A stretch of DNA of 36,836 nucleotides from a virus: positions 1-36,836 of IMG/VR virus record IMGVR_UViG_3300032309_001900. One strand, given 5' to 3'. The number at the start of each line of letters is the position of its first letter. Position 1 is the first letter of the stretch. A program made the translations under genes and the position numbers. The notes under the pieces were generated by a model. The model did no database searches. It was not told where the DNA came from and saw only the letters and a list, made by a program, of their open reading frames with translations. This document shows, piece after piece, positions 2,635-33,710 of the stretch.

Positions 2635-3264
2635 ATGTCTTACTCGTATGATTATTATTTGAAAACGTGTTTAATTTTGCGTAAAAGCGGATTTAATCCA
2701 AAAAAAATTTTAGATATTGGCGCGAGTATTTGCGAAACCGCCGACATCATGCGTGATGTTTGGCCTGTTGCAAAAATTGTTCTTTTTGAAGGTAATAAAA
2801 AATTTGAATCTTTATACAAAATAAAAAATTATACATACAATATAAAATTACTTGGTAAGTATAATGGAATATCTAAATTTTATAAAACTAAATGGAGTCC
2901 AGTTTGTTCAGGCAATTCAATATACAAAGAAAATTCATCTTTTTATGACGACACTAATTTAATAGTAGAAGAACTACCGATTTATAAATTAGACGATTTA
3001 ACTAATGAAGATTTTGATCTTATAAAAATAGATACTCAAGGATCTGAGCTAGATATAATAAATGGAGGATTTGCGACGTTTTCAAAAGCAAAAGTCATTA
3101 TCACAGAAGTGTCTTTAATTAATTATAATGAAGGTGGATGCGCAAAACAGCAAGTTATAGATAAATTAACTGATATGAAATTTGATTTCATATCAGTAGT
3201 TGAATCTGTTCTGAATGATAATAAACAAATAATAGCTGAGAGCTTATTGTTTATAAAACCTTAA
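2635..3264 (+). CDS. FkbM-family SAM-dependent methyltransferase
   Basis: 209 residues. The SAM-binding motif I is KILDIGAS (residues 24-31), followed by an acidic strand end VLFEGN (49-54). The family signature KIDTQGSELDIINGG (131-145) matches FkbM/Methyltransf_21 proteins, which usually O-methylate sugars or other small groups. It starts six bases after the fibre stop codon and has no Shine-Dalgarno sequence, so it is probably cotranscribed with the fibre. Its last 14 bases overlap the end of the converging glycosyltransferase gene. Next to glycosyltransferases and a sulfotransferase, methylation of a phage-made or host glycan is the natural inference; the substrate is unknown. Confidence 0.85.
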   Translation: MSYSYDYYLKTCLILRKSGFNPKKILDIGASICETADIMRDVWPVAKIVLFEGNKKFESLYKIKNYTYNIKLLGKYNGISKFYKTKWSPVCSGNSIYKENSSFYDDTNLIVEELPIYKLDDLTNEDFDLIKIDTQGSELDIINGGFATFSKAKVIITEVSLINYNEGGCAKQQVIDKLTDMKFDFISVVESVLNDNKQIIAESLLFIKP

Positions 3265-5277: not shown

Positions 5278-6059
5278 AAAACTTTAAACATATCGTCTTC
5301 TTTATTTTCTTGAGCAAAATATTTTGATAAATATTCTGGTGTCATTTTTGATATTTGTTTTTGTTCTGCGAATTTATTTCTCCAGTTAGCCAGCCATTTA
5401 TTGACATTGCCAGTATAATGTTTATTGCCTGAATGTATTAATTCAATATTTGTATCAACGTATACTTCACCTCCAAGATTTTGCCATTTAAATCCTAATA
5501 CAACATCTTCTGAGATAAAATGTTTTTGATCGTTTACAACACAATCACAAATGATTTTAGTAACATCGTCAGCACCATCAACATAATAGTTGGGTTCATT
5601 TTCAAACAATTGATCTACACATTTTTTAGACAATTTCAAAAATCCACATCCCAATCCATTTACTTCTAATAAACCATCATTATCAGGTGTTATTTCAAAT
5701 GTATTATCAGTATCTCCTTTTACTTTGAATGTATATAATTCTTCTTCATCTTGTTTCTTTCTATATCCACCGCCAATCATATCTTTATCACTCAATACCA
5801 ACTTTATGAAGTCTTCGGCTTTCCATCCAATATCAGCGTCTATAAAAAACAACGCATCAATATCATTTTCATATGCTATCTTGAAGTATCTATTGCGTAC
5901 ACGTTGCACCAAACTATCATAACACAAATAAACAGGAAGTATTTGTATATTATTTTGTGATACGAGATATTGTGTAGCATTTAAACTTTTGATAAATTCT
6001 ACGTCGTATTTTCCATCGTAACTTGGAGCCGCTAATAAAACTTTTATTGGTTTATTCAT
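5274..6059 (-). CDS. GT-A glycosyltransferase, paralogue 2
   Basis: 261 residues from the start chosen here. The frame extends to an ATG at 6089, but the ATG at 6059 gives MNKPIKVLLAAPSYDGK, which aligns with the start of paralogue 1, and it forms an ATGA overlap with the stop of the sulfotransferase gene. Motifs: LCYDSLVQRVRN (45-56), FIDADIGW (D74-A75-D76), GLGCGFLKL (136-144), SED (183-185), VDTNIELIHSGNKHYTGN (201-218). Same Anp1/GT62-like family as the gene at 3251-4012, from a duplication with divergence; all catalytic-type residues are kept in both copies, so both are probably active. The two copies are separated by the GT-B gene and the small gene. Confidence 0.8.
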   Translation of the reverse strand: MNKPIKVLLAAPSYDGKYDVEFIKSLNATQYLVSQNNIQILPVYLCYDSLVQRVRNRYFKIAYENDIDALFFIDADIGWKAEDFIKLVLSDKDMIGGGYRKKQDEEELYTFKVKGDTDNTFEITPDNDGLLEVNGLGCGFLKLSKKCVDQLFENEPNYYVDGADDVTKIICDCVVNDQKHFISEDVVLGFKWQNLGGEVYVDTNIELIHSGNKHYTGNVNKWLANWRNKFAEQKQISKMTPEYLSKYFAQENKEDDMFKVL

Positions 6060-6883
6060 ACAGGATAATTGAACGCTTTGAAATACCAAGCATACTTGTT
6101 TGTGATATAATCACAATTATGTTTCCCCAAAACTTTTAGATAATCATCTTCAACAGGCTTTATTTTTCCTCGTATCATATGATCACCAAACGGTCTGTAA
6201 AATACATCATTTTCTTGAGTGACTTGTCGCACGTTGTCAAAATTATGAAGTTCATAATATGGTAATTCAAAATAGTTATACACCTTTCGCATTTCAGCTT
6301 CGGGATTACGAGTCAAATCCTCAAATTTGATAAACAAACACTTTTGAGAAATACGACGTACAATAACATCATATATTACGTCAATTGGTGCATTTAGGGG
6401 TGGCGCTACATTTAGATACATATCCACGCGTTTATCGGTGGTAGTGCCTTTCATTTCATTCCAACTTTGCAAACCATTTTCAAATTGTTGGTTTTCTCTG
6501 AACTTCTTTTCTAGACTAGAAACAATAGATCTTAAATCTCTTACCAAGACTACTATTTTTGGGTTAGGATAAAAATAATTTAAAAAATCATGTGTGACGC
6601 TCCAGCCTCTGGATTTATCAAGCGCATATTTTTTATCTGTGACGTTGTTAAAGAATCCAGTCAATAATCCATTGCACATACCTTTGAATCCAGCTTCCAT
6701 TAATGCAGAATCTTGAGCTTTAAATTCAATAGAATTCCATACATTACCTTTCAAATTGAGCAGTACATCACATAATCCACTTGTAGGTGTTGCATAAAAA
6801 TCTGGATTTTGTGCTATTATGTTTTGAAAAAGTGTCGAACCGCTGCGAGGCATACTACTTTGAAAAAAAATCTTTTGAACCAT
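6056..6883 (-). CDS. PAPS-dependent sulfotransferase
   Basis: 275 residues. The 5'-phosphosulfate-binding loop is SMPRSGSTLF (10-19) and the 3'-phosphate-binding region is VVLVRDLRSIVSS (111-123), with Arg115 and Ser122/123 in the expected places. These are the two hallmarks of sulfotransferases that move sulfate from PAPS onto sugars, tyrosines or lipids. No signal peptide or membrane anchor is seen, so it acts in the host cytoplasm. It is the first gene of the minus-strand run and overlaps the next gene by ATGA. Its start codon is only 10 bases from that of the divergent APS kinase, which would make its donor. Acceptor unknown; a glycan made by the neighbouring glycosyltransferases, or the Ser/Thr-rich fibres, are reasonable guesses. 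Confidence 0.85.
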   Translation of the reverse strand: MVQKIFFQSSMPRSGSTLFQNIIAQNPDFYATPTSGLCDVLLNLKGNVWNSIEFKAQDSALMEAGFKGMCNGLLTGFFNNVTDKKYALDKSRGWSVTHDFLNYFYPNPKIVVLVRDLRSIVSSLEKKFRENQQFENGLQSWNEMKGTTTDKRVDMYLNVAPPLNAPIDVIYDVIVRRISQKCLFIKFEDLTRNPEAEMRKVYNYFELPYYELHNFDNVRQVTQENDVFYRPFGDHMIRGKIKPVEDDYLKVLGKHNCDYITNKYAWYFKAFNYPV

Positions 6884-6893
6884 AACATATATT

Positions 6894-7349
6894 ATGACAA
6901 CACAGTCGTTTTTAAAAATATTAATTATGGGTTTGCCGGGATCTGGTAAAACCAGTTTGGCAAGAGATTTAGTTTATATTTTAAATGATAATTATAAGTG
7001 TTATTGGTTGAATGCGGATAAAGTTCGTGAACAATTTAATGACTGGGACTTTTCTGAAGTTGGTCGTGAGCGTCAAGCAAAAAGAATGAAAGATTTGGCC
7101 AATTTATATGGTCAATATAATGAAATTGTAATTTGTGATTTTGTATGTCCATCACAAAAAACTAGAAATAAATTTGATCCTAATTTTTTGATATTTATGA
7201 ATACTATTGATAGATCAAGTTATGAAGATACAAATAAAGCATTTGAGCCGCCGACAAAGTTTGATTTTGAAGTAAGATATAAAAATAGTAACTATTATTC
7301 TAAAATAATATATAATGAAATAGTTCATAAGATGAATAAAAAAGTGTAA
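6894..7349 (+). CDS. cysC: Adenylylsulfate (APS) kinase, short form
   Basis: 151 residues. The Walker A loop is GLPGSGKTS (13-21), followed by LNADKVREQFNDWDFS (39-54), the counterpart of the LDGDNxRxGLNxDLGFS motif of APS kinases, and then GRERQAKRMKDLA (57-69), matching the DRxENIRR helix. ICDFVCPSQKTRN fits the FISP-RxxR loop, and AFEPP near the C-terminus corresponds to YEPP. It lacks part of the C-terminal region of cellular CysC (about 200 residues), so it is a shortened member. Reaction: APS + ATP to PAPS + ADP. The only visible use for PAPS here is the divergent sulfotransferase. The gene runs into the head-tail gene 9 bases downstream. A related P-loop kinase with a different substrate is the main alternative. 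Confidence 0.75.
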   Translation: MTTQSFLKILIMGLPGSGKTSLARDLVYILNDNYKCYWLNADKVREQFNDWDFSEVGRERQAKRMKDLANLYGQYNEIVICDFVCPSQKTRNKFDPNFLIFMNTIDRSSYEDTNKAFEPPTKFDFEVRYKNSNYYSKIIYNEIVHKMNKKV

Positions 7350-13055: not shown

Positions 13056-13073
13056 GTGTAAATAAGAAATATG
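13056..13073 (+). promoter_or_regulatory. Recurrent start motif GTGTAA-N9-ATG (copy 3)
   Basis: GTGTAAATAAGAAATATGG lies in the 28-base gap before the tape measure gene, wholly non-coding, with G of GTG 15 bases before the ATG at 13071. No Shine-Dalgarno sequence is present. Confidence 0.5.
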
Positions 13074-16000
13074 GCAGTTCAAATTAATGTCGCGGCCAAT
13101 CAAGCAGCATTAACAGCTTCTATTCAAGCTGGTGTTCAAGCGTATAATCAAAGATTCGCTCAGAATAACCAACTTAATTTGACAGTTAATCAACGAGCTT
13201 TCTCTCAGCCGCTTGGCAGAATGACAGGCGATGTGAAAGACTTTGAAGCAGCACTAGCCGCTTCTAATGCTCGCGTTATTGCGTTCGGCGCTTCCACTGC
13301 TGTACTTGGTGGTGTTATTAATAGTTTTAAAGAGTTGGCTAATGTTACTATTAGTGTAGAAAAAAATCTTGCTGATATTAATCGCGTATTCGGTCTTACT
13401 ACTTCTCAGTTACAAAAATTTAGCACAGATTTATTTACTGTAAGCAAACAAACCGCATCTTCTTTTGATGACGCATCTAAAGCTGCTCTTGAATTCTCTC
13501 GTCAAGGTTTAAAAGCTGAAGAGACTTTACAAAGAACAAAAGACGCTCTTACGTTAACAAGATTAGCTGGAATTGATACTGCAAATGCTGTTGATGCTTT
13601 GACTTCAACTGTAAACGGTTTTGCCGCAACTGGAATCACTACCACTCAAATATTAAATAAGCTTGTTGCTGTTGAACAAGACTATGCCGTAGGCGCAGGA
13701 GATTTAGCTGAAGCTTTGTCTCGTACAGGTCAAGCAGCGCAAGAAGCTGGAGTCAGTCTTGATCAGTTAAACGCATTGGTAACCTCCGCACAACAAAGCA
13801 CTGCAAGAGGTGGTGCAGTAATCGGTAACGCATTAAAAACAATTTTTACTCGTTTACAACGTACTGAAACTTTAGATCAGTTGGAAGCTTTTAATATAGC
13901 GGTTAGAGATGTCCAAGGAAATATTTTACCTGCTGTTCAAATATTACAAAACTTTGCTGGAGCTTATAAAGGTTTGGCTGACGCTCAAAGAGCGCAATTG
14001 TCAGAACAAGTTGCTGGTGTTTATCAAGTTAATATCTTAAAAGCAATTGTTAATGATTTAAATAAATCACAAGGCACATATGCTGGAGCTTTACAAAGAG
14101 GCGCATCAGCAACAAATGAAGCTGAAATAGCTACTGCTAAATTAAATCAAACTCTTGACGCTTTATTAAAACAAACAGCTAGTTCTACTCAACAATTAGC
14201 AAATAATATTGGTAAAGTAACATTTGAACCATTAGCTAAATATGGCGCAGAGCAATTAAAATCATTCGTTGAATCAATGAATGAAATTCTTGAAGGAGAA
14301 GGAGTTGGTTCTACTTTCGCAAATGGTTTGTTAAAGGGTATTAGAAATGTAATAGCTGGTCCCGGTGCTATTGCTGCTTTCTTTACACTTTTCAAGTTAA
14401 TACAAAATTCTTTTACTTATCTATCTCAAGCTTTACCTCAGATTGCTGGTATTACTACCGAAACACAAAATAGAAAAAATATCGAACAATCTATTTTGCA
14501 AATAATGCAGCAACAAGGGCCAGCTTCGCAAGCTCTTGCTGGACTAATGGGTAATCAAGCTGCACAAGCACAATTATTGCTTCAAATAGCAAGACAGCAG
14601 ACAGCAGAATATCAAATGCAGTCTACACTTGCTAAACAATTAGCCGCTCAATTAGCTACTCAAGGAGTAAGAGTAAAAGGATCTGGTGGATTGCAAGTTA
14701 CTCGCGCAGGAGGATATATTCCTACTGCAACAAGAATGGCTGAAGTCGTTGGCGCACAAGCTGGTGGCTACGCTCCCGGCAGAGTTGTTTCTTCTCCTGT
14801 TGGTGGAGTAATGAATACCGCTGAAGATGTAAAATATATTCCAGGTTTTGCTCAACCTTTTATTAATCCTCCTGCTGGATCAAAAGCTGGCCGCGCACAT
14901 AGACAAAATTCTATAAGTAGAACAGGTGTTGATCCATATATGTTTAATGGATTTATACCTAATTTTGTTAAAAAAAGTCCATCTCAATTTTCAGTAGGCA
15001 GGGCATTTGAACAATCTGTTGGATTTGATATTAAAGTTCCTCCTTCTCGCAATAAACCTATAGATTTTAAAGAGGTTTTAGAAAAACCAATAAATAAAAA
15101 TTTTAATCCAAAACTATATCAATCGAATACTTTTGCTGATGCACACTCTGGTTTAGGGCATACCAGCGCAGAAAATATCAGTAAAGTTATTAATTATATA
15201 GGTCAGAATTATTACACTTATTCACCAAAACAAGGATCAAAAACAAAAAGATTAAAAATTGATGATAAAACCTCTATCATTTCTCAACCAGATCTTTTAG
15301 GAGATTTATTTATTCGTCCAAGATACACAGAAATTATTGGTGAAGGTTCAGATGTTCCAAACCAAATAGAAACCTCTTCTATTTCTAGTCTAAACACTAC
15401 AGCTAAAAAGACTTTATTAAATGGAGTTTCTGAATTAGACTTTAATCCTATTTTAAGAAAAAAAATAAAGATGCAATTTGCTCAAGATAGAGTATATGGT
15501 TCTGGTTTTATTCCTAATTTTGCTACTCCAATGAGTACAGCAAGTATTCCTTGGTTCAAGAAATATTCTAGTAAATATAAAAACGCTTCTGGTGATACAG
15601 ATCTTTTCAAGATGGGAGATTTTCCTACTTATGGAAGAGGTTTAGATCACGAATATGCAAAAAAAGGAAATTCCGCTATGCTTTCTTACTTGCATGAAGA
15701 TTTTGTAAGATCTGCATTAAATATAGCTTTAGGTTCAAAAAAAGTAATAAGACCAGCAGAAGTTGGATTTAAAAATAAACCTGTAAGCGATATAGCAAAT
15801 GAGAATGATTTTGATTTATTATATAGAATTGCTGATGGTTCATATAGTATGCTTGAGTTGAAACAAGATTTCAAAAATATTTCTGGATCAGTCACTGGAT
15901 TCATGAATAAAAAACTTGCAAATCTCGAAAAAGAAAATCCAGTATTAGCTAAGAAAGTTAGTTCGATGATTGCTGTTTCAAATAGACCAAAATTTATTGA

Positions 16001-19000
16001 TCCCACTGGTAAAAATCCAGCAGGGCAATTTAGTGAATTTGAAATGGCTGCCGCATCAATTGTTAAAGATAAGTATTCGAATGTTGATCCATCAATAAGT
16101 GCAAAACTTACAAAAGTTACTGATGGTTTATTAAGAAGATACGAAACTAAGAAAAATACTACATATGGTGGTTTTATTCCTAATTTTGCATATAAACAAG
16201 CAGTAATGGGCTTAGAAGAAAGCATGAGCGGCAATAAAGCTATCTTTGATACCAAGCCTTTTCCTCATATTAGAAACAGCAGTCAACCAACATTTAGTTC
16301 CGCAATTGCTGATCATGGTGGCTTAGGTAATGCATTAAGCGATTCAATGAGAGGACAAAAAGCTGCTGGATTGATGAGCGGAGGATTTATTCCTAATTTT
16401 GCAGATTCAAATATAAATGTTAGAAGTTTATTACCTAACGCTCCAAAAAGTTGGGCAGCTTCTATAGATAAAGCGCAAAATGCTTTGATGCAATTAGCGG
16501 ATGAATTATTAAAGAATAAAACTAAAGTATCTCAATATTCTACTGAATTAGCGAAAGTTGCTGCTAATAATAAAGTGTTAAATAGCATACTACCTCAAGT
16601 AGAAAAGCAATTAACGCAAGAAATAAACGAAAAGAAAAAATCAGCAAGAAATCAAAAAATATCATCTTTAGGAACAACATTGGCTTTTGCTGGGCCTATA
16701 GCAGCAGGATTATTAGAACAATCTGTTTTTGGTAATAGACAAAGAACTGATATGTCTTCTACAGAAAGATCTGTTCAATCAGGATTGAGTACGGGTTTAA
16801 CCGCTGTTTCAACTGGTGCATCTATTGGATCTGCTTTTGGTCCAGTAGGTGCTGCTGTAGGAGCTACAGCAGGAGCTTTAATTGGTTTAATTCAGTCTGT
16901 TGATGCCGCTAAATTATCAATGGAAGAATTAGCTAAAATAGATCAAGAAAATATCGAGATAATGCAAAAAAATGCTTCTGCTGGTTCTGATTACATTCAG
17001 AAACAACAGGAATTATCAAGATTAATAGCTTCTGGAGCAAAAGAATCTGACATACAAAATGCTTCTAAAGCAGTATCTCAAAGTTTTACAGAAATAAAAG
17101 ATACAAAATTAGCTGAAGCTTTTACAAAAACAAAAGGTGATGTAGAGGGAATGTCTAAAGCTTTACAATCTTTCAATGCCGATCTTCGTAAAAAACAATC
17201 TGCATCTGCCGCTCTTTCTTCTTTGAGAGAAGGTGGTTTCTTTTCTACTACAGCGCAAAAAGGAGTTAAAGATGCTAGAGAAGTAGCTGGTAATTTATTT
17301 TCTGCATTTTCTGAAAGCGATTTGAGTAAAGGATCAATGGAAAATATTGTAAATAATATTTCTAAATATAATCAAATAAAGCCTGGAACTGGAAGAGCTG
17401 GTGCAGCTTCAGCAGCGCAACAGCAATTAAGTATTAGAAATGCTGCAACTTCAGATATAGAAAATTTAATAAGTTTTGAATCTCCTGAATTAAAAAAAGG
17501 TACAGATGAATATAAACAAAGAGTTGAAAGATATTTAAATTTATTTTTTGGAGCAAGCGGTAATCAAATTGCAGAAACATATAAAGATTTAGCTGGTAAA
17601 AACAAAGATGAAGCTAAAAAAATATTGGATAAAATTAATAAAGAAGGAAATCTAAGAAAAGCTCGTTTAAAAATTGAAGATGATATCTTTAATCAAACAA
17701 GGCAGTTAAATGAAGATCTTTTAAAAAATGATTTCGCTCAAAAATTAAAAGAAACTATTTTTAACTTTGATCAAAACGTAAGATCTTCTTATGTAGATCC
17801 ACTTCAATTACTTTCAGAAAAAAGAGAATTTCAATTAAATCAATTACAGAATGAATTTGCGAATGGAACTAAAAAAGCTATTGGTGATTTTTATGATAAA
17901 ACTTTACAAGGATTAAGTGGAACAATTCAAAATGAAGATTTTTTAAATAAAATTCTAAAACCAGCATTAGATGAATTTAAAAAAACTGGTAATGTGTCTG
18001 ATTTGAATGATACGTTGACTACAGATGGTCAGATTTCAAATAATCCTGACGCATCAAAGCTTTTAATGGAATCTATAAGACTGTATAATGAAGCTGAATC
18101 TAAAAGAGCAATAAACAACGGTGGTCAAAGAGACTTGGTAAATAAACAATTGGATTTAGAGGATATAAGAGCAAGAAATGATAAATTTTTAAATTCTCTT
18201 ATTATAAAACAAATTGAATTATCAGGTGATGCTGAAATATCACAAATAAAAAGAAGAACTCAATCGGAGTTAGAAATGGATACGTTAGATAGAAAAATGT
18301 CTGATCAAGGACAGTTTTTAGGGATGGGAGTTTTAGGAAAAGCTAGTGAAAGATCTAGAATAAGAAATTTGATGTCTAAACGAAAAATAGCAGAACAAGA
18401 ATTTGAAAAATCAGCTTCTGCCCAAACTTCTTATGCTAGTATTTTAGAGGCTCAAAGAAGCAGTTTGTTGCAAGAAGCTAACGTGTTAGATCAACAATCT
18501 CCATTGGGAACTGGTGGTTTTTTACAAAGAGCGCAAGCAGAAGGTATTTCTCCAATACAAATTCAAAATCGTCACGATTTGGCTTCAGCAATCAAAGAAA
18601 TTGAAAATATAAAATTAGTTGGAGAAAAAGAAACAGAAAGAGTTAGAACTTTAAGTAATTTAAAAAAGATTCAACAAGAAATAATTAGTGGAAAAACGAA
18701 AGAAGAAAAAATTACAAGAAGAATAAATGATGAAGATAAGCGTACTGCCAGACGCTCTACATCTTTTTCTTATGGAGTATCTGCTGGATTTGATAAATTA
18801 AAAGATGAAAGTGAATTAATGATAGGTCGTTTAGGAGAAGATCTACCAAAAATGTTTGCTGATGGATTGGTTAATGGAATTAAAGCTGCTATAAGAGAAT
18901 CTGATAATTTAGGAAGCGCTTTGATGGGTATAGCTTCTACTTTTTTGGATACTATAAGTACAACATTAATGCAATCTGCGGTTTATGGAATATTAGGAAA

Positions 19001-20048
19001 TCTTGGAGTTTCTAATTTACCAGTTGCCGCTAAACAAAGAGGAGGAGTAATTCGCGCTCAATCTGGTATGTATATTTCTGGAGTTGGTTCTGGAGATAAA
19101 TATCCAGCACTACTTGAAAATGGGGAATACGTATTAAATAGAAGAGCGGTAATGGCAATGGGTGGTCCAGCTTCACTTGATCAACTAAATTTTGCGATGG
19201 CTCCTCGTTTTGCTTCTGGCGGTTCATTTAGTAATGAATTTACAGATCTCAAATCAATGGAATCTAATATGACTAGTTATGGAATGGAAAATAGCAAGTT
19301 ATATGGTGAATTAAGGGATGCTGAAGTTGCAGCCGCTGAAGAACGTAGAAGAAAAGCTTTTGCAAGAAAACAACAAAGAGCAGGTATGATTGGATCTTTA
19401 GTTGCTGCTGTAGCATCTATTGGTTTGGCGCAAGGAATGTCAAACATCGCACAAAATGCTCAATCTAAACAAGCGCAAGCTTTATCTGGTAAATTAACTA
19501 GTGGAGCAAATTTAACAAAAGCTGAATCAGCTTCTATCAAACCTTTCATAGATAAAGGTTTAATAAGTCCATACTCAGGAGCTTATACTGGAGGAAGCAG
19601 TTATAGTGGAGTAAAGAGTTTCTTCTCTGGTCCAACTGCTTATGGTCAATCACCTTGGTATCAAAAAATGAATCCATTTGGTAAGCAGACTGGCGGATTA
19701 ATTGGGTCTCGTTTGTCTGATACAATTCCAGGTTATATGGAAGGGGGATTGTATAATACTCCTATAGTTAAAAGATATGGTGTTGGAATGCAAGCGGGAG
19801 GTATGTCGCCAATATCAAATAGTAATTCTAATGTTGTTAATACTACAAATGCTACTAACTCATTTAATTTCAATACTAATGTTAGTAGAGATGGAACAAT
19901 AGAAGTTGGATCTAATTCTACAAGCTATGCTCAACAAGATGTTGCATTATCTAAGAATTTGAATAGCAAAGTTTATGCTGTAGTATTAGATGCCATTAAA
20001 AATGAACAAAGATTCGGTGGAAGTTTAGCAGGAACACGCCAAGGATAA
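13071..20048 (+). CDS. Tape measure protein with embedded nuclease-like domains
   Basis: 2325 residues, the largest gene. About residues 95-330 resemble the TP901-type tape measure core (SKQTASSFDDASKAALEFSRQG and following). A hydrophobic stretch (AIAAFFTLFKLI) lies near 430. From 548 to 1110 the chain is broken by short Gly/Ile/Pro repeats: GGYIPTA (548), AGGYAPG (565), KYIPGFA (588) and four copies of GFIPNF (627, 812, 1034, 1105). Between the second and third GFIPNF copies is a PD-(D/E)XK-like domain (HED 875-877, DFD 913-915, ELK 929-931); between the first and second is a degraded relative. Residues 1202-1275 hold Gly/Ala-rich, possibly membrane-active segments, and 1290-1900 is mainly helical. 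Near 2013-2027 is ALLENGEYVLNRRAV, a motif common at tape measure C-ends. Role: sets tail length and enters the host envelope during ejection. Confidence 0.92.
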   Translation: MAVQINVAANQAALTASIQAGVQAYNQRFAQNNQLNLTVNQRAFSQPLGRMTGDVKDFEAALAASNARVIAFGASTAVLGGVINSFKELANVTISVEKNLADINRVFGLTTSQLQKFSTDLFTVSKQTASSFDDASKAALEFSRQGLKAEETLQRTKDALTLTRLAGIDTANAVDALTSTVNGFAATGITTTQILNKLVAVEQDYAVGAGDLAEALSRTGQAAQEAGVSLDQLNALVTSAQQSTARGGAVIGNALKTIFTRLQRTETLDQLEAFNIAVRDVQGNILPAVQILQNFAGAYKGLADAQRAQLSEQVAGVYQVNILKAIVNDLNKSQGTYAGALQRGASATNEAEIATAKLNQTLDALLKQTASSTQQLANNIGKVTFEPLAKYGAEQLKSFVESMNEILEGEGVGSTFANGLLKGIRNVIAGPGAIAAFFTLFKLIQNSFTYLSQALPQIAGITTETQNRKNIEQSILQIMQQQGPASQALAGLMGNQAAQAQLLLQIARQQTAEYQMQSTLAKQLAAQLATQGVRVKGSGGLQVTRAGGYIPTATRMAEVVGAQAGGYAPGRVVSSPVGGVMNTAEDVKYIPGFAQPFINPPAGSKAGRAHRQNSISRTGVDPYMFNGFIPNFVKKSPSQFSVGRAFEQSVGFDIKVPPSRNKPIDFKEVLEKPINKNFNPKLYQSNTFADAHSGLGHTSAENISKVINYIGQNYYTYSPKQGSKTKRLKIDDKTSIISQPDLLGDLFIRPRYTEIIGEGSDVPNQIETSSISSLNTTAKKTLLNGVSELDFNPILRKKIKMQFAQDRVYGSGFIPNFATPMSTASIPWFKKYSSKYKNASGDTDLFKMGDFPTYGRGLDHEYAKKGNSAMLSYLHEDFVRSALNIALGSKKVIRPAEVGFKNKPVSDIANENDFDLLYRIADGSYSMLELKQDFKNISGSVTGFMNKKLANLEKENPVLAKKVSSMIAVSNRPKFIDPTGKNPAGQFSEFEMAAASIVKDKYSNVDPSISAKLTKVTDGLLRRYETKKNTTYGGFIPNFAYKQAVMGLEESMSGNKAIFDTKPFPHIRNSSQPTFSSAIADHGGLGNALSDSMRGQKAAGLMSGGFIPNFADSNINVRSLLPNAPKSWAASIDKAQNALMQLADELLKNKTKVSQYSTELAKVAANNKVLNSILPQVEKQLTQEINEKKKSARNQKISSLGTTLAFAGPIAAGLLEQSVFGNRQRTDMSSTERSVQSGLSTGLTAVSTGASIGSAFGPVGAAVGATAGALIGLIQSVDAAKLSMEELAKIDQENIEIMQKNASAGSDYIQKQQELSRLIASGAKESDIQNASKAVSQSFTEIKDTKLAEAFTKTKGDVEGMSKALQSFNADLRKKQSASAALSSLREGGFFSTTAQKGVKDAREVAGNLFSAFSESDLSKGSMENIVNNISKYNQIKPGTGRAGAASAAQQQLSIRNAATSDIENLISFESPELKKGTDEYKQRVERYLNLFFGASGNQIAETYKDLAGKNKDEAKKILDKINKEGNLRKARLKIEDDIFNQTRQLNEDLLKNDFAQKLKETIFNFDQNVRSSYVDPLQLLSEKREFQLNQLQNEFANGTKKAIGDFYDKTLQGLSGTIQNEDFLNKILKPALDEFKKTGNVSDLNDTLTTDGQISNNPDASKLLMESIRLYNEAESKRAINNGGQRDLVNKQLDLEDIRARNDKFLNSLIIKQIELSGDAEISQIKRRTQSELEMDTLDRKMSDQGQFLGMGVLGKASERSRIRNLMSKRKIAEQEFEKSASAQTSYASILEAQRSSLLQEANVLDQQSPLGTGGFLQRAQAEGISPIQIQNRHDLASAIKEIENIKLVGEKETERVRTLSNLKKIQQEIISGKTKEEKITRRINDEDKRTARRSTSFSYGVSAGFDKLKDESELMIGRLGEDLPKMFADGLVNGIKAAIRESDNLGSALMGIASTFLDTISTTLMQSAVYGILGNLGVSNLPVAAKQRGGVIRAQSGMYISGVGSGDKYPALLENGEYVLNRRAVMAMGGPASLDQLNFAMAPRFASGGSFSNEFTDLKSMESNMTSYGMENSKLYGELRDAEVAAAEERRRKAFARKQQRAGMIGSLVAAVASIGLAQGMSNIAQNAQSKQAQALSGKLTSGANLTKAESASIKPFIDKGLISPYSGAYTGGSSYSGVKSFFSGPTAYGQSPWYQKMNPFGKQTGGLIGSRLSDTIPGYMEGGLYNTPIVKRYGVGMQAGGMSPISNSNSNVVNTTNATNSFNFNTNVSRDGTIEVGSNSTSYAQQDVALSKNLNSKVYAVVLDAIKNEQRFGGSLAGTRQG
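14712..16400 (+). repeat. GFIPNF linker repeats in the tape measure protein
   Basis: Four exact copies of Gly-Phe-Ile-Pro-Asn-Phe start at nt 14949, 15504, 16170 and 16383 (residues 627, 812, 1034, 1105), three of them followed by Ala. Looser relatives lie upstream: GGYIPTA (14709), AGGYAPG (14760) and KYIPGFAQPF (14832). The copies bracket segments of about 185, 222 and 71 residues with quite different composition, so they look like borders between modules rather than a structural repeat within one fold. Confidence 0.85.
15522..16166 (+). other. PD-(D/E)XK nuclease-like domain inside the tape measure protein
   Basis: Residues about 818-1032. A helix with SYLHEDFVRSALNIALG carries a Glu (876) as in the first core helix of these nucleases. 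Then comes NDFDLLYRIADG (Asp913, Asp915), a turn, and SMLELKQD with Glu929 and Lys931, giving D-x(13-15)-E-x-K. The order and spacing fit the metal-binding core of PD-(D/E)XK enzymes. The rest (MNKKLANLEKENPVLAKKV and so on) is helical. This is a motif call by eye; no structure prediction was run. Confidence 0.6.
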
Positions 20049-22744: not shown

Positions 22745-23550
22745 TGAGTAAATTTATAAAATATGAGAATTTAGATTTTAGAATAAATAATGATATTTTT
22801 TATTCTACATCTGTGCAAATTTCTTTGCGTACAAATATAGAACCTGTATTGCTTTCTGATGGTTCATTATTAAGATATGCGCCTCAAGGAACAGTTGTAG
22901 GTAGTTTAACTACTGAATTTTTTTTAACAGGAGCTTATCCAAGCTATTTAATTCCTACGAGTAATTCAGAAAATCCAGTTAATGCTTTATTTGCAGGAGT
23001 TCAAATAGAAAATTGTTATCTAAAAACTATTTCATTCAAAGCTTCTCAATTTTCTCCAATATCTTTAAGTGCAGAATTTGATTGGTTTGGAAAATTAAAT
23101 ACAGTTGACAGTACAAATAATTTAAAACAATTTTATTTTAATAGAAATCAATCTCTTGACAATGTTTCTCACTCAAATAGAAGTTATATTTCAGATTTAA
23201 GCAATGTATTTGGATTTTCTGAAGTGTTTGGGTTTCAATATTCTGAGCAATGCGAAAGAATTCCATTTTTCAAAAATGGTGAAATAGTTCCTTTTAGAGT
23301 CGCTAAATCAAATAAAAATAAAAGCGTAAGCGTTGATGGCAATTTCTTTAAACAAAATAATGTTTCTGATATTGAAGGGAAAATAAGTAATTGCGATTTA
23401 TACATAAAAGATTATAATAATAATTTATTAAATACTTTTAATATTTCTGGAAGAATAGAATCGCGAGGAATGAATACTACTAACAATGGAATTTTGCAAA
23501 GCAATTTAGCAATAACTCAACGTTTAGCTCCATTAAGAAATACACTATGA
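22744..23550 (+). CDS. Tail-tube-like distal tail protein B
   Basis: 268 residues, beta-rich, with few charged helices. The N-terminal strands (STSVQISLRTNIEPVLLSDG, LLRYAPQGTVVGSLTTEFFLTG) and the GEIVPFRVAKSN/KSVSVDGNF region resemble the layout of distal tail protein A and the tube protein, though more distantly. It starts in a TAATG overlap with the fibre gene and ends in an ATGA overlap with the gpM-like gene, so translation is coupled. Likely a distal tail or baseplate ring protein joining tube and tip. Alternative: a phage-specific tail-tip protein of other origin. Confidence 0.5.
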   Translation: MSKFIKYENLDFRINNDIFYSTSVQISLRTNIEPVLLSDGSLLRYAPQGTVVGSLTTEFFLTGAYPSYLIPTSNSENPVNALFAGVQIENCYLKTISFKASQFSPISLSAEFDWFGKLNTVDSTNNLKQFYFNRNQSLDNVSHSNRSYISDLSNVFGFSEVFGFQYSEQCERIPFFKNGEIVPFRVAKSNKNKSVSVDGNFFKQNNVSDIEGKISNCDLYIKDYNNNLLNTFNISGRIESRGMNTTNNGILQSNLAITQRLAPLRNTL

Positions 23551-25559
23551 GTGAATTTTTAAATACACAATTTTCTGTCACAGGGATTAAAGATTTTGAT
23601 ATTAATCAAAATTATGATCAATATGATTTAGTTGATTATGAATTTCATACTGGAAATTCTGTATATCCAGCAAACTTATCTGGCTTGTATGCTTGGTTTA
23701 ATTTAGATAGTCTTAATAATATTGAATTTGATGGTTCTGGTAAAATATCTTTATGGCATAATTCTGCTCCAGGCTTTTCAGAACAAAATTTAGTAAATGT
23801 AGATGCTACTGTGACTTTGGATTCTAGACCAAAATACGACTCAAATAAAAATTCTGTAGTTTGTGAAAGATCTTTGAGCGAAACATTCTCGTATAATCAA
23901 CTATATACAACGCAAAATTTTTCGGGTTTTCTAACTGGAGATAGATGTTGGTTCGTTGTATTTGAATATGATGATTTAAAAAATGGATTATTTAATTATA
24001 ATGCTGGCAGTCCTTATGGAGTAATTTATCCAAATTATTCTACAATTATAAATACAGATTCAGCCAATCCATATGTTACTAGTGGTGCATTAATGGTTTA
24101 TGGAAATAATATTGAATATTCTTGGAATACAAATGTGCCTAAAGAATCTCAACAATTTATAGTAGATACTACTACTTCAAATGGAATAGTTTCTCCTCCA
24201 CCAATTAATTCATCATTCTCAGCTTCTAAATTATTAAAAAAGAAAAGTATTGTTTCAATTATAAAAAACAATACAACAAATAATTTTAAATTAAGAAATA
24301 ACGGTTGCGAATTGTTAAATTTAACAAGTAATTATTTTTATACTGGTGCTGCTGGTCTTAGAATTGGAACTGCTGGTAATGGGCATGTTGGCGCAAATAA
24401 TATATGGAACTATGATGCTTCAAGTATTTCTTATTATGAAATAATAGGATATTCAAAAACTCCTACAGATGATCAAATACTACAAATAGAAAAATATTTA
24501 TTTGAAAAACATTTTACAAATGACGATGGTCTTTATATATCTAATCAAGATTTTACTAGTTTAAATTATTCATATGCGCCTATTAATATAACGGGATCTA
24601 GATATTTAACTAGAGATGTTGATTCTATTTTTAATAAAACATATGGATGTTCTGCAAATTTTACCACGAAGGCTTTGAAGATGCAATATGGTGATGGATA
24701 TTATACAAATGTTGTTCCAAACGTTAATAATTTGACAAGCGATTTTAAATTAGTTTATGATGGTTTAACGGATATTCAATCAAAATCTTTAATTGGTTAT
24801 TTTCAAAATACTTTTGAATATGAGGCTTTAGGATTAGTGGAATCTTATCAATCCGTAGATATTGATTTATTTTATCCATATAAAAATAATGCTAAAATAT
24901 ATTTTAATTCTTTGGACTACTCTTCTAAAGAAGCGAATTTAAATGCAATTACAATAACTTGCAATTCGCCATATGATTCTAATTTAGATTATAAAGGATT
25001 TTTAGTTACTGGAGACGATACAACAAGATTATTTGACCAAAATAAACCTTATTTTAAAGATGATGTTTCATTCTTCAAAACAACAAGTTCTTTATTAGAA
25101 GATTATTATTGGTACACTGGAGCCAATAATAAAATCGTAAGTATAAATGAAAATCCTACAGGAATAAATAGCTTATTCACAAGAAAATTTTATTTTAAAC
25201 CTGATTTAAATTTTCAAATTCCGCTTAATCCAAGATTTGTAAAAACTGAGTATGCGATGACCGCGCCAGTTTATGAAACAGACGGAATAAATAAGAATGT
25301 TTTAGATTTTACTTTAAGCTTTTCTAATAGATCAGATAAAGAAGCTTTGGCAATATTAAAATTTTTAGATAATAAAGCTGGTTTTAAGATTTTTGAAATA
25401 GATTTGCCAGATCCTTATAATAAAACAATAAATGTTTATTGTCCTGAATGGAATCATACATATAAATTCTATAACAATCACGATATTTCAGTAAAATTTT
25501 TAGAGTTTAAGGGTTTAACTTCATCAGATATATATTTTAATACATTAATTTCACTATGA
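23547..25559 (+). CDS. Lambda gpM-like tail tip protein, duplicated, with LamG-like domain
   Basis: 670 residues, against about 110 in lambda gpM. Residues 45-330 look like a concanavalin A/LamG-type lectin domain: LSGLYAWFNLDSLNNIEFDG, GKISLWHNSAPG, and at the end YYEIIGYSKTPTDDQILQIEKYLFEK, the usual closing helix of phage and Bacteroidota LamG domains. Two gpM-like domains follow: ALKMQYGDGYYTNVVPNVNN (about 375-480), which matches the 'FGDGYeqR...GlN' signature of gpM, and PRFVKTEYAMTAPVYETDGI to PEWNHTYKFYNNHDISVKF (about 550-665). Role: ring at the tail tip that also binds glycans. ATGA overlaps on both sides. The call for the first gpM domain is firmer than for the second. Confidence 0.7.
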   Translation: MSEFLNTQFSVTGIKDFDINQNYDQYDLVDYEFHTGNSVYPANLSGLYAWFNLDSLNNIEFDGSGKISLWHNSAPGFSEQNLVNVDATVTLDSRPKYDSNKNSVVCERSLSETFSYNQLYTTQNFSGFLTGDRCWFVVFEYDDLKNGLFNYNAGSPYGVIYPNYSTIINTDSANPYVTSGALMVYGNNIEYSWNTNVPKESQQFIVDTTTSNGIVSPPPINSSFSASKLLKKKSIVSIIKNNTTNNFKLRNNGCELLNLTSNYFYTGAAGLRIGTAGNGHVGANNIWNYDASSISYYEIIGYSKTPTDDQILQIEKYLFEKHFTNDDGLYISNQDFTSLNYSYAPINITGSRYLTRDVDSIFNKTYGCSANFTTKALKMQYGDGYYTNVVPNVNNLTSDFKLVYDGLTDIQSKSLIGYFQNTFEYEALGLVESYQSVDIDLFYPYKNNAKIYFNSLDYSSKEANLNAITITCNSPYDSNLDYKGFLVTGDDTTRLFDQNKPYFKDDVSFFKTTSSLLEDYYWYTGANNKIVSINENPTGINSLFTRKFYFKPDLNFQIPLNPRFVKTEYAMTAPVYETDGINKNVLDFTLSFSNRSDKEALAILKFLDNKAGFKIFEIDLPDPYNKTINVYCPEWNHTYKFYNNHDISVKFLEFKGLTSSDIYFNTLISL

Positions 25560-28235: not shown

Positions 28236-29333
28236 ATGAACACTCTTTTTAAATTAAACAATTATTTAATATTAGATCTATATGAAATAGAATTAGATCC
28301 TAACGAAGGATTTCTAAGATTTCATGGATCTAAGAACTTTTCTCAAAATATTATTTTTCAAGGTAATGAGTATTCTTTTTTACCTTGTGAATTTTCATCT
28401 TTTCAAAAAAGCTCTGATGGAAGACAGAGTAGGCCAACTTTAAAAATTGCAAATGTAAATAATTATTTTTCTAAAATTTTAGCCGATAGAAATAATCTTA
28501 TAGGAAAAAAGTTTTATAGAAAAAAGATTTTAGCTAAAGATTTAGATGCGGCAAATTTTACTGATGGGATTAATCCTTATGGAACTTCTAGTTTTAATAC
28601 TTATATAGCTTTTGATAAATTAATAATTAATTTGAAAAAAAGTGAAAATAAACAAGAAGTGGAATTGGAGTTATCTTCTAAGATTGATGTTCAAAATTTA
28701 AATATTCCAGCTAGAAAAGTTACGAACAATACTTGCGGATGGAACTATCGTTGTTATGGATGTAATTATGGAAACACTTCTGACTATGCGGGTCCAATTA
28801 TAAAAAATGCATCTGGAGACGCTGCTAATGCGTTATATTTTTTTCAAACAGTATGGAAAGATTCAGTATCATCTACTCCTTCATATCCTGGAATAACAAG
28901 TAATATAGGTCTTCCAGTTGCAGATCAAAATGATAAGACTTTTTTAGCTGGGTATAAAACAAATTTAAGCAATAATTCTTATAATTTAACAAGTTTAACA
29001 TACAAAGGAGAATGGTTATCAACTAGAACTTATTCTAAGGGTGATTTTGTTTTTATAGATCCACTGCCCAGCATGGATTTAGATGAAGAGTCTTCTTTGA
29101 TAATTCCATTAAATAGTCCAAAAACTTTTTTCGTATGTTTGCAGGATAGCGTATTAAATAAAAATCCATTAGAGAATACAGACGTTTGGAAACAAGATAA
29201 ATGCTCTAAAACATTAAATGGTTGTTTATTAAGGTTTCAAGACAATAAAACATCAGCTAATAACTCCAGAACTTCATTACCTTTTGGCGCTTTTCCAGCA
29301 ACATTTCCTTATGATAACGATGCTAAAAAATGA
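28236..29333 (+). CDS. Lambda gpL-like tail tip protein with inserted CBM5/12-like module
   Basis: 365 residues (lambda gpL has 232). Two cysteine pairs, C167-x8-C176 and C323-x6-C330, match the spacing that I recall for the four cysteines that hold an iron-sulfur cluster in lambda gpL. CNYGNTSDY after the first pair and SKTLNGCLLRF...SLPFGAFPA after the second match gpL signatures. Between the pairs lies an insert of about 120 residues. Its second half, YKGEWLSTRTYSKGDFVFID...FFVCLQDS...W, has the Y-x2-GD-V-W pattern of carbohydrate-binding modules of family 5/12. Extra cysteines at 173 and 301. Last 14 bases overlap the JAB gene. Part of the tail-tip assembly. Confidence 0.75.
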   Translation: MNTLFKLNNYLILDLYEIELDPNEGFLRFHGSKNFSQNIIFQGNEYSFLPCEFSSFQKSSDGRQSRPTLKIANVNNYFSKILADRNNLIGKKFYRKKILAKDLDAANFTDGINPYGTSSFNTYIAFDKLIINLKKSENKQEVELELSSKIDVQNLNIPARKVTNNTCGWNYRCYGCNYGNTSDYAGPIIKNASGDAANALYFFQTVWKDSVSSTPSYPGITSNIGLPVADQNDKTFLAGYKTNLSNNSYNLTSLTYKGEWLSTRTYSKGDFVFIDPLPSMDLDEESSLIIPLNSPKTFFVCLQDSVLNKNPLENTDVWKQDKCSKTLNGCLLRFQDNKTSANNSRTSLPFGAFPATFPYDNDAKK

Positions 29334-29659: not shown

Positions 29660-30163
29660 GTTAACATAAAACTACATGGAATATTTGAGAGTTTAATGAA
29701 AACAGAGTGGAATTTGAATGTTAAAACTGTTTCTGAAGCTTTTGATGCTATTGAGGCTAATAGTGGAAAATTAATTAAAACTTTAGGAATTTTGGAAGAA
29801 TATATCTCTCATTTTTTAATTTATGTAGATGGAAAAATAATGGCTCCAGATTATTTAAATTCTCCAGTTTTAAATAAAAATTCTAAAATAGAAATAGTTC
29901 CTTTAATTTTAGGTTCTGATTTTGGTATTACTCTTTTAGTTTCATTAGTTATAATGGCTATTGCTACAGGTATTCAATTATTAATAACAAAATTACTATC
30001 GCCAAAAACACCAAAAGATATAAAAAATAATTCTAAACTGTTTTCTGGATATGAAAACGTTACTAAAAGAAATGTGTCTATTCCAATAGGTTATGGTAGA
30101 TTAAAAATAGGATCTGTAGTTATATCAAATTATTTATATAATACAAATAGAATAGCTTCATAA
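29657..30163 (+). CDS. Lambda gpI-like tail assembly protein with ubiquitin-like domain
   Basis: 168 residues. Residues 1-85 look like a beta-grasp ubiquitin-like domain (NIKLHGIFESLMKTEWNL, then FLIYVDGKIMAPDYL, ending KIEIVPLILGSDFG). A single strongly hydrophobic segment follows (ITLLVSLVIMAIATGIQLLI, 91-110) and then the gpI signature VSIPIGYGRLKIGSVVIS (140-157). Lambda-type order K-I-J is kept: JAB gene just upstream, gpJ-like gene sharing the TAATG junction downstream (30161-30165). gpI acts transiently in tail-tip assembly and is not in the mature virion of lambda. Confidence 0.85.
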   Translation: MVNIKLHGIFESLMKTEWNLNVKTVSEAFDAIEANSGKLIKTLGILEEYISHFLIYVDGKIMAPDYLNSPVLNKNSKIEIVPLILGSDFGITLLVSLVIMAIATGIQLLITKLLSPKTPKDIKNNSKLFSGYENVTKRNVSIPIGYGRLKIGSVVISNYLYNTNRIAS

Positions 30164-33100
30164 TGAATATATACGTTCAAACAGATACAAGTAATATTTT
30201 AAATATTGCAGCTGGAAGTAATAATGCGACAATAGATTCAGAATCTTTTTATGAATCTGTAGATCTATTAAGCGAGGGGCCTATAGAAGGATTGACTGAT
30301 TCTAATGGCAATACTGTAAATTATATTACATTAAATAACTCTTCTTCTAATCCAGTTAATTCAGCAAATTCTTCTTTAGCTTATGGCGTTTATTATAATG
30401 ATGTTCCAGTTAAAGATAGTAAAAGCAATTTATTTAATGTAACTTCTTCAGATTTTAGTTTATATTTAGGAAATTCACTTAAAAATTCAGATTTAAATGC
30501 TAGTTCTTTATATGAATATAAAAGTAGAGTTTATGATTTGGAAAGAGATCCTTCTTTAAATTTTGATATAACTAAAAATTATGATGTTAAACTTTTTTAT
30601 GAAAATGCCACTGCTGATTTTGAAAAGAAGTTAATTGCATTAAAAGATACTGCTCGTTGCTTTACTCATTATATAAAAAATAAATATACAACAACAGTAA
30701 TATTAAATATATCTATCGATTTGTTGTATTATATAGGAGGAAAAGGCGAGACTTATAGTAATTATATAAGATTTGTTGTTGCTTTAAATAATCCTCAAAC
30801 AAGAAAGACAGCTTATTTATATTTTCAAGGATACTTCGTAGTAAAATCTACGCCAATTATTATTCCAATTGTTTTAGAAATATCCGATGAGGATAAAGCT
30901 AATAATCCATTTGCTGAGTTTATTTTAAGTGTTTATAGCGTTCAACAAAGAATAAGCGCCATTCAAGAGTTGAAAAATGCTGGAAATGCATCAAGAAATT
31001 TTTCAGTAGACTCTATAATCGAACAAATAAATTATGGTTTTTCAAATCCATATTCTGTTTTATGTAGAAATAAAGTAAGCGCAAGACATTTTGGATCTAT
31101 TCCAGTAAGAAGTTATGATTGCAAATTATTAAAGATAAGAGTTCCAGATAATTATGATTGTGAAGCTAGAGAATATTCTGGAGATTGGAGTGGTAATTTT
31201 AGCAAAACTCTCAAATGGTCTGATAATCCAGCTTGGATATTTTATGATTTATGTGTTAATTCAAGATATGGATTAGCTAAAACATTTTTTAATGAAAACG
31301 ATTTAAATAAATGGGAGCTTTTAAAAATTTCTAAATATTGTGATGAGCTTGTAAAAACAAATGCTTCTACAAAATATCCTTATGATAATTTTACTTATGA
31401 CAATGATTTAACAGATATAAATTCTATAGATTATAATACTATAATAATTACTAGAGCTACAGCAATAAATCAAACCCAATTATCTTTAGAATATCCAATA
31501 GGTTCGTTATTATTTTTATATGATATAAAAGATCAATTTGATGAAAATATTAACACTAATTATAAAAAAATTATTGTATCAGCTACTGTAACTAGCACTT
31601 ATAAAGCAAAAATAAAGCTTTATAATGATTTTGGTCCTCGTACATTCATAGAATCTGATAAGAGTGGTAAGTTTTTTTCAGCTTTACAGTCTTATGTTTC
31701 AGGAAATCCATCTATCTTAAATAAACAAGATAAGATTAAGAAGTATGCGGTTTCATATATTTCAAGAACAGACAATATAGTTTTAACTTATAATAGTGCA
31801 GAAGAACAAATTTCTCAGCAGTACAGTTCTGCTAGAATATTTGATTATGATTTAAAAATAAAATCAGGAAAATGTGTAGCTGCTCAAGAAGGTTTTGGAG
31901 ATTTTTTGGAACCTAGATTTTCCGCAAATATTTTATTAAACAGTGAAACAGAAAGCTTAAAAGTTTTATCTGATTTATCGTCAGTTTTTAGAGGTATTTT
32001 TTATTTTAGAAATGGCTATTTGAGTTTAAGCAGCGATGTTTCTGCGCCTACTAGTTATATATTTACAAATTCAAACGTTAAAGATGGTTTGTTTACTTAC
32101 ACATCTAGTGATTTTAATACTTCTTTTTCTATAGCTAAAGTTTCATATCTAGATAAAAGCGATAACTTTAAAGATAAAATTGTTTATGTAGAGGATTCAG
32201 ATTTGATAAAAAAATATGGATTGATTGAAAAAGAGGTTATTGGATTTGGTGTTACTTCTAGATATCAAGCAAATAGAATAGGAAAATGGTTTTTAGCAAC
32301 GGGAAAGTTGGAATCTGAAGTTGTTAGCTTTACAACTGGTGTTGAAGCTAATTTATTAAAAATAGGAGACGTTGTAAGAGTAGCAGATTATTTAAAAACA
32401 TCAAATATAAGTTATGGTAAAATAACTTCTTTAGATTTTAAGAATAATTATATTTATATAGACAGGCCAGTAGCTGATGATTCTTTAGGTAAGAATATAA
32501 AAATATTTTCTGTTGTTCAAGGGGAACCAATTGAATTATCTTTTTATATATCAGAAATAGATAATGCTAATTTAAGATTGAAGTTAATAAATGAAAAATA
32601 TTTTTCTTGGATTTTAAAATCTGGAATAACAGCTTCTTCTGATAATAAAATATTGACTGCTGTAAGTAGTTTTGCATCAGATTGGAATAAAAAGGCTTAT
32701 ACTAATCAATCATATACTGATAATTGTTCTCTTGATTTTTCTGTTCCTGATTTGTCTAGTGAAAGTGCAGTGGGTATTTCAGAAATTGATAATATAAATA
32801 ATAGTTATACAGATATTGATTATCGTTTTAGATTCGCTGGATCAGGAGTTGTTGTAGAAGTTAACAATTCAATTGTAGCTTCAGGATCTTTTAAGATAAC
32901 AGATAGTTTTTCAATAACTTATGATGGAATTTATATAAAATTTTATCAAAATAATACTTTATTATATACAGAAGGAAGAACTAAAGGAAATCCATTATAT
33001 GCAATTGTTGCAATGAAAACTATATATGCAAGTATAAAAGATTTATATTATACATCTTTTCCAGATGAAACTTATGGTAATTATGCAAATTTAAGATCTG

Positions 33101-33699
33101 ACGCTAATTTTGCTATCTATTTAGAAGAAAATATTGATAAACAAAATCTTTATCGTATTAGTAGTATTACAGAAAATTCTGCAAATGATTATGCTATTTC
33201 TGCTCTTAAGTATGATGAAGAAAAATTTAAAATAGTTGAAGATGACAAATATGTAGATCCAAATCAAAACAATCAAAAACAAATAGTTTTTTCTACAGAT
33301 GATTATATATCTTCTGCATTAACAGATGCTCAAATAACGGCCAATATAACTAATCCTCCATTAGACATAAGTTACGTTCAATCTATCAATACAAATTATG
33401 ATTATTCTTTTATAATAGAAAATGAAGTATTAAATGCTAATTATAATTTAAAGATGTATCAATCAGTTAGTATAAATTTCGTTAATTTGTTTGGTTATTT
33501 AATTAATCCATCTGTTTATGGATTGCTTTGCAATATAACAAGAAATGGTAAAATTTTAAAATTTAAAGTTTTAAGAAGTGAGGCTCGTTTTATAAATATT
33601 TTCTTGGGTGAAAAGCCAACTTCTTCAGGAAATTATAGTCCAAGTTATTTTATTGATTTTTACGCTTTTGATAAAAATTTAAAACTAATCAACGTGTAA
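30163..33699 (+). CDS. Lambda gpJ-like central tail tip/host-specificity protein
   Basis: 1178 residues, close to lambda gpJ (1132). Signatures: VDLLSEGPIEGLTD (33-46), a hallmark of gpJ N-termini; GSIPVRSYDCKLLKIRVPDNYD; REYSGDWSG; and NPAWIFYDLCVNSRYGLAKTF (about 354-374) followed by YCDELV. Central regions are beta-rich as in the tail hub, with SRYQANRIGKWFLATGKLESE and AEANLLKIGDVVRV-type segments typical of gpJ. The last 400 residues are fibronectin-like and show no match; the receptor-binding tip would lie there. Starts in a TAATG overlap with gpI. Ends in the recurrent GTGTAA motif before the last fibre gene. Confidence 0.85.
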   Translation: MNIYVQTDTSNILNIAAGSNNATIDSESFYESVDLLSEGPIEGLTDSNGNTVNYITLNNSSSNPVNSANSSLAYGVYYNDVPVKDSKSNLFNVTSSDFSLYLGNSLKNSDLNASSLYEYKSRVYDLERDPSLNFDITKNYDVKLFYENATADFEKKLIALKDTARCFTHYIKNKYTTTVILNISIDLLYYIGGKGETYSNYIRFVVALNNPQTRKTAYLYFQGYFVVKSTPIIIPIVLEISDEDKANNPFAEFILSVYSVQQRISAIQELKNAGNASRNFSVDSIIEQINYGFSNPYSVLCRNKVSARHFGSIPVRSYDCKLLKIRVPDNYDCEAREYSGDWSGNFSKTLKWSDNPAWIFYDLCVNSRYGLAKTFFNENDLNKWELLKISKYCDELVKTNASTKYPYDNFTYDNDLTDINSIDYNTIIITRATAINQTQLSLEYPIGSLLFLYDIKDQFDENINTNYKKIIVSATVTSTYKAKIKLYNDFGPRTFIESDKSGKFFSALQSYVSGNPSILNKQDKIKKYAVSYISRTDNIVLTYNSAEEQISQQYSSARIFDYDLKIKSGKCVAAQEGFGDFLEPRFSANILLNSETESLKVLSDLSSVFRGIFYFRNGYLSLSSDVSAPTSYIFTNSNVKDGLFTYTSSDFNTSFSIAKVSYLDKSDNFKDKIVYVEDSDLIKKYGLIEKEVIGFGVTSRYQANRIGKWFLATGKLESEVVSFTTGVEANLLKIGDVVRVADYLKTSNISYGKITSLDFKNNYIYIDRPVADDSLGKNIKIFSVVQGEPIELSFYISEIDNANLRLKLINEKYFSWILKSGITASSDNKILTAVSSFASDWNKKAYTNQSYTDNCSLDFSVPDLSSESAVGISEIDNINNSYTDIDYRFRFAGSGVVVEVNNSIVASGSFKITDSFSITYDGIYIKFYQNNTLLYTEGRTKGNPLYAIVAMKTIYASIKDLYYTSFPDETYGNYANLRSDANFAIYLEENIDKQNLYRISSITENSANDYAISALKYDEEKFKIVEDDKYVDPNQNNQKQIVFSTDDYISSALTDAQITANITNPPLDISYVQSINTNYDYSFIIENEVLNANYNLKMYQSVSINFVNLFGYLINPSVYGLLCNITRNGKILKFKVLRSEARFINIFLGEKPTSSGNYSPSYFIDFYAFDKNLKLINV

Positions 33700-33710
33700 A
33701 GTAATATATG
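33694..33710 (+). promoter_or_regulatory. Recurrent start motif GTGTAA-N8-ATG (copy 5)
   Basis: GTGTAAAGTAATATATGG includes the last codon and stop of the gpJ-like gene (GTG TAA) and the start at 33708, 14 bases after the first G. It differs by a single base from the minus-strand copy at 11248-11232 over 18 bases. Confidence 0.5.

Follow-up and report, generated by a model that had tools for sequence, protein, structure and literature searches.

We favor the possibility that the segment at positions 15522-16169 (+ strand) of the viral record IMGVR_UViG_3300032309_001900 (IMG/VR), the 36,836 nucleotides of which we refer to as the window, belongs to an array of exchangeable cargo cassettes in the tape measure protein (TMP) of a lambda-like siphovirus, in which it is the second, that its product is most likely a metal-dependent PD-(D/E)XK-type nuclease and that this product is ejected with the TMP as infection begins. 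We give this reading a probability of roughly 60%. Our reasoning starts from the array itself, the swapping of its cassettes, the conserved residues of the flagged domain, the purifying selection acting on it and the presence of other nuclease cargo, and leads by inference to fold, catalysis, delivery and target. The carrier is encoded at 13071-20048 (+ strand); its product of 2325 amino acids (aa) matches Pfam PhageMin_Tail (2e-27) and eleven PHROG tape-measure families (best 3.3e-45), and the assignment as a TMP rests on these profile matches together with the position of the gene within a tail gene cluster.

A preliminary description of the window had placed a PD-(D/E)XK core between copies of the peptide GFIPNF, and of the copies starting at aa 627, 812, 1034 and 1105 of the TMP, those at 812 and 1034 do flank the flagged domain (aa 818-1033). 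The motifs on which that description relied, HED (875-877), DFD (913-915) and ELK (929-931), are also where it had put them, with a further ELK at 1473 outside the segment. On their own such motifs are weak evidence because similar patterns are common in charged sequence, and it is their conservation across homologues that takes them beyond chance. In an alignment of 19 homologues with 26-91% identity to the window, E876, D915 and K931 (codons 15696-15698, 15813-15815 and 15861-15863) were the only invariant charged residues of the domain, and the probability that three invariant residues placed at random among its 59 charged positions would all lie within the seven originally singled out is 0.001. 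Position 929 (codon 15855-15857) is E, D or Q (77%, 13% and 11% by weight). The remaining motif residues did not hold up: the H875 column contains Y, H or F, the D877 column D, K, E or T, and D913 is replaced by A, P or S in homologues and was therefore rejected as a catalytic residue. As judged from this alignment the core should read E876 - D915 - (E/D/Q)929 - x - K931. The domain thus resembles the PD-(D/E)XK superfamily in having, in the right order, an invariant acidic residue (E876), an aspartate ahead of the (D/E)xK strand (D915) and the (E/D)xK itself; it differs in that the family has no detectable sequence link to the superfamily, the fold is putative and one homologue has QxK.

A protein scan of viral contigs identified 11 close relatives of the domain (89-95% identical), and adding alignment- and motif-based scans brought the family to about 34 distinct sequences in about six subfamilies; repeated scans yielded no further relatives. 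Measured against close homologues of the window, the ratio of nonsynonymous to synonymous substitution (dN/dS) in the flagged domain is 0.15-0.20, indicating that it is maintained as a protein under purifying selection.

The cassette arrangement was defined from related TMPs. A pattern scan returned at least 120 GFIPNFA-encoding DNA stretches, and scans for two more motif variants and for the end module described below were added. The pattern-scan loci contained at least 111 motif-bearing frames and, among the matches listed, the TMP N-terminus was present in 55 of the 58 motif-bearing frames having more than 450 aa before the first motif. The assembled set comprised 230 non-redundant TMP frames, each 900 aa or longer and containing between 2 and 9 copies of the motif; their 712 cassettes fell into 167 BLAST families (100 of these singletons). 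TMPs of the window clade share one order: the N-terminus is constant and is followed by slots 1 and 2, further slots, a constant module of 71 aa and finally a variable C-terminus. In the window, all on the + strand, these correspond to aa 1-626 (13071-14948), boundary motif 1 (aa 627-632, 14949-14966), cassette 1 (aa 633-811, 14967-15503), boundary motif 2 (aa 812-817, 15504-15521), the flagged cassette 2, the constant terminal module (aa 1034-1104, 16170-16382), which begins with GFIPNF copy 3 (GFIPNFAYKQ...DTKPFPHIRNSSQPTFSSAIADHGG), boundary motif 4 (aa 1105-1110, 16383-16400) and the C-terminal part (aa 1111-2325, 16401-20048), which shows 28-86% identity over matched parts among relatives. 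The flagged family occupies slot 2 in 24 TMPs with a complete N-terminus and slot 3 in two others.

Cassette swapping is seen between TMPs that share more than 93% identity at the N-terminus. The constant N-terminus is 93-98% identical in several relatives with differing cassettes (67-90% in L008 and L007). In L109, for instance, the N-terminus is 96.8% and the end module 100% identical to the window, and cassettes 1 and 2 are at 63% and 31%; in L003 cassette 2 is kept at 95% and cassette 1 is unrelated. In the TMP comparison, window cassette 1 was without a counterpart in L003, L007, L146 and L233. The boundary peptide is conserved and its DNA is not, 255 GFIPNFA contexts carrying 112 distinct 21-mers; since the codons vary freely, the motif acts at the protein level, and it may be a linker, a binding motif or a processing site. 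For the same reason we rejected the idea that GFIPNF is a DNA recombination site.

Support for a nuclease role comes from the other cassettes. Forty families had three or more non-redundant members. In 11 of these, the flagged family included, the signature E...D...(D/E)xK was conserved (in at least 95% of members), where column shuffles predict about one. Families located chiefly in the third slot or beyond contributed none of the 11 (Fisher p = 0.0008, with slots assigned by eye and a numbering that shifts by one in some clades). The largest signature superfamily comprises 134 non-redundant sequences, of which 134 have the D, 130 the E, 133 the D/E and 133 the K. It is present in 133 of the 230 TMPs and the flagged family in 35, with no overlap. 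Zero co-occurrence is expected if one family replaces the other, and clade structure also contributes; we read the two as functional equivalents that replace each other, bearing in mind that only one clade contains the flagged family. In addition, there are cassettes that Pfam recognises: SNase (2e-9), GNAT (6.7e-8), cytidyltransferase-related (3.3e-8), GHKL ATPase (3.8e-5) and CI-repressor-like HTH (1.4e-4), as well as weak P-loop matches. SNase-like cassettes lie in TMP slot 1 or 2 at L257:3859-4461, which gave the Pfam match, and at L148:5428-5976 (0.012) and L014:3278-3910, both below the Pfam cutoff; the family also matches solved thermonucleases (2.3e-4). In L148 and L095 an SNase family member sits in slot 1 directly beside a flagged family member in slot 2. 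The SNase (PF00565) cassette of sister TMPs is a recognisable nuclease in the same array, the same clade and the adjoining slot, although its family is unrelated to the flagged domain and absent from the window. Both the recurrence of the signature in ten further families and the SNase in slot 1 support a nuclease role for the flagged cassette.

Several observations weigh against this reading. The AlphaFold2 (AF2) model of the flagged domain, built with 16 homologues, reached a pLDDT of only 41.9, which is too low to interpret; it puts E876 in a helix at this low confidence. The domain had no significant match in Pfam, PHROGs, PADLOC, PDB or INPHARED, and sequence and profile comparison tied it to no known nuclease. 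Profile similarity to a described family is not strictly defining for PD-(D/E)XK enzymes, many true members of which fail such a test. Once the shared motif was stripped, there was also no profile-profile link between the flagged family and the other signature-bearing cassettes; an apparent 87.7% link was an artefact of the GFIPNF motif itself. One homologue, L195, has QAK in place of ExK and is the sole Q variant. The largest signature superfamily did give a confident AF2 model (L102:8380-9024 and 133 relatives, 94 sequences used; pLDDT 86, pTM 0.79), and Foldseek matched this model to nothing in the PDB (best E 1.0) or among viral models in BFVD (best E 0.16). Finally, a nuclease carried inside the genome's own tube must somehow spare the phage's DNA.

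The textbook PD-(D/E)XK core runs alpha-beta-beta-beta-alpha-beta. In the superfamily model an N-terminal three-stranded sheet is followed by a helix (E), a strand (D), a strand ((D/E)xK) and a helix; in the L102 cassette the signature residues are E107, D128, E152 and K154. Given the lack of a structural match, a fold other than PD-(D/E)XK may carry the signature; going by the model, the superfamily would be either a PD-(D/E)XK domain that has undergone strong rearrangement or another fold that shares its catalytic signature. This bears on the possibility that the cassette, though an enzyme whose E-D-ExK site binds metal, is not a PD-(D/E)XK nuclease and has a new fold or performs some other phosphodiester or nucleotide chemistry on, for example, RNA, tRNA or NAD. 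A confident model without a structural match, in which a beta-meander precedes the E helix unlike in the textbook order, is what such an enzyme might look like. However, the helix-strand-strand-helix succession that carries E, D and (D/E)xK in that model, and the SNase found in an equivalent slot, both argue for a nuclease, and we consider this possibility quite improbable. Somewhat easier to credit, yet still unlikely in our view, is that the cassette has no catalytic role and serves as a structural or binding insert (contacting a receptor, a chaperone or the tube, or adjusting length), its variation being driven by selection from host membrane proteins, with E, D and K being coincidental or a relic. 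Neither the low-confidence model of the flagged domain nor the unmatched superfamily model confirms a nuclease fold, TMP regions correlate with the inner-membrane route of lambda-like phages (PMC13190303), and window cassette 1 has DxH, not DxK, all of which would suit an insert of this kind. It would not explain why just three charged residues, in PD-(D/E)XK order, are invariant over 26-53% identity, why the signature recurs in 11 cassette families, or why recognisable enzymes (the SNase, GNAT and cytidyltransferase-related matches above) are found among the cassettes.

A nuclease could also act in the producing cell rather than after ejection, for instance in degrading host DNA before lysis or in recombining cassettes. 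Structural proteins, the TMP included, are made in that cell, and the cassettes are highly recombined. We nevertheless judge this very improbable: the location of the domain within the TMP, when it could have been a separate protein, points to packaging; progeny genomes would be at risk from a nuclease active in the cell that produces them; and the variable codons of the motif argue against GFIPNF serving as a site for DNA recombination.

Returning to a nuclease cargo delivered by the tail, we envisage the following scenario. Each cassette would be a domain in its own right with GFIPNF(A) motifs at its borders, the front slots holding mostly nucleases or nuclease-like domains of several unrelated families and the later slots other domains. 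In the flagged cassette, metal would be bound by E876, D915 and (E/D)929, with K931 as the catalytic lysine. The cassette would leave the tail with the TMP as infection starts. At the inner membrane or inside it, the cassette would then act on DNA of the host, a plasmid or a rival phage, either before the genome enters or while it does so; frequent swapping might then reflect differing targets or immunities. Precedent for such a route comes from lambda: during infection, a ManZ proximity probe at the inner membrane labels its TMP, which aids the genome in crossing (PMC13190303). By analogy, TMP cassettes could reach the inner membrane or cytoplasm ahead of the genome and, because ruler proteins reach the host membrane before phage DNA, the array may represent a little-known means of delivering enzymes at the first moment of infection.

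A more general proposal, to which we assign somewhat less than even odds, is that an uncultured and widespread siphovirus group uses its TMP as a programmable multi-effector delivery polypeptide, in which GFIPNF-delimited cassettes (nucleases at the front, other enzymes behind and a fixed module at the end) are exchanged between phages and injected before the genome, and in which at least one nuclease-cassette fold is absent from the PDB and has a PD-(D/E)XK-like active site. If this is true, TMPs would be more than rulers or wall-openers, namely carriers of a modular arsenal acting before any phage gene is expressed; it would matter for understanding how phages prevail over host defences, plasmids and rivals in the opening seconds of infection, and GFIPNF would become a ready handle for finding cargo in uncultured phages. 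The array yields testable candidate nucleases and one confident cassette model with no structural match.

Some TMPs are known to carry enzymatic add-ons such as lysozyme or peptidase domains. The present array is similar in placing an extra enzyme domain within a TMP; unlike in those cases, the cargo is nuclease-like or otherwise of a cytoplasmic type, not wall-degrading, and belongs to an exchangeable array with multiple slots. MARTX and MuF polymorphic toxins also combine a constant carrier with exchangeable effector modules, but their carriers are secreted or head-associated and are not tail TMPs. Closest in concept to the array are the polyvalent proteins of phages and conjugative elements (Iyer et al. 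2017, PMC5512222), in which one long polypeptide likewise contains many effector-type enzyme domains subject to shuffling; these are thought to enter the cell with DNA, and peptidases have been proposed to separate their domains. The criterion used for polyvalent proteins, multidomain composition with effector-type domains of independent origin, describes the TMP family as a whole, and the window itself has two candidate cassettes. What sets the TMPs apart is that the carrier is a tail ruler protein, that the domains are bounded by GFIPNF and that a constant end module closes the array; the word 'tape' does not occur in PMC5512222. We found no description of a GFIPNF TMP, of GFIPNFA or of TMP nuclease cargo in the open-access literature, subscription papers and preprints lying outside the scope of this search, and absence from that literature is no proof of novelty.

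With regard to the remaining members of the array, the constant 71-aa module (window 16170-16382) was found in 100 viral loci and, where present, almost always forms the last cassette of the TMP. Window cassette 1 reads GRAFE...PIDF...FADAH, with E647, D665 and D690-x-H692; it resembles the GDAK families except that His stands in place of the catalytic Lys (one relative has Tyr), and is possibly inactive or of altered chemistry. Its profile link to families 16 and 3 is weak (E 0.003-0.006). Elsewhere, L058:4886-6166 has the look of a cytidyltransferase-related enzyme, confirmed by Pfam. L071:428-1411 (zinc metallopeptidase, AHELFH), L013:2849-3241 (HAD phosphatase), L035:3864-4460 (kinase-like) and L444:5703-6341 (ART-like) are candidate resemblances that Pfam did not confirm.

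The only hint as to a host came from L193 (RFYG01000107.1), a 4-kb contig in a 1.4-Mb proteobacterial metagenome-assembled genome (MAG). The TMP encoded on this contig combines a cassette 1 of the window type with a member of the flagged family, two more cassettes and the end module; the contig is perhaps a misbinned phage sequence. A search of 263 genomes from the order of this MAG gave no superfamily match, which shows little by itself. INPHARED contained no usable match to a cassette or the end module, and no cultured phage was found with the flagged cassette.

Downstream of the TMP gene, all on the + strand, are genes for a minor tail protein (Phage_min_tail, 23547-25559, 1.3e-10), a minor tail protein L-like product (Phage_tail_L, 28236-29333, 8.6e-37) and a tail tip protein (Phage-tail_3, 30163-33699, 1.3e-14), and these matches place the TMP in a lambda-like siphovirus tail module. 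Two collagen-repeat tail fibre-like open reading frames lie at 1-2628 and 33708-36836 of the window, one ending with a C-terminal Peptidase_S74 (endosialidase chaperone) domain. The window also encodes an FkbM methyltransferase (2635-3264, + strand, 4e-11), a sulfotransferase (6056-6883, - strand, 1e-17) and an APS-kinase-like P-loop protein (6894-7349, + strand, 3e-13); these genes lie near a tail fibre gene and possibly form a set for sulfation or glycan modification.

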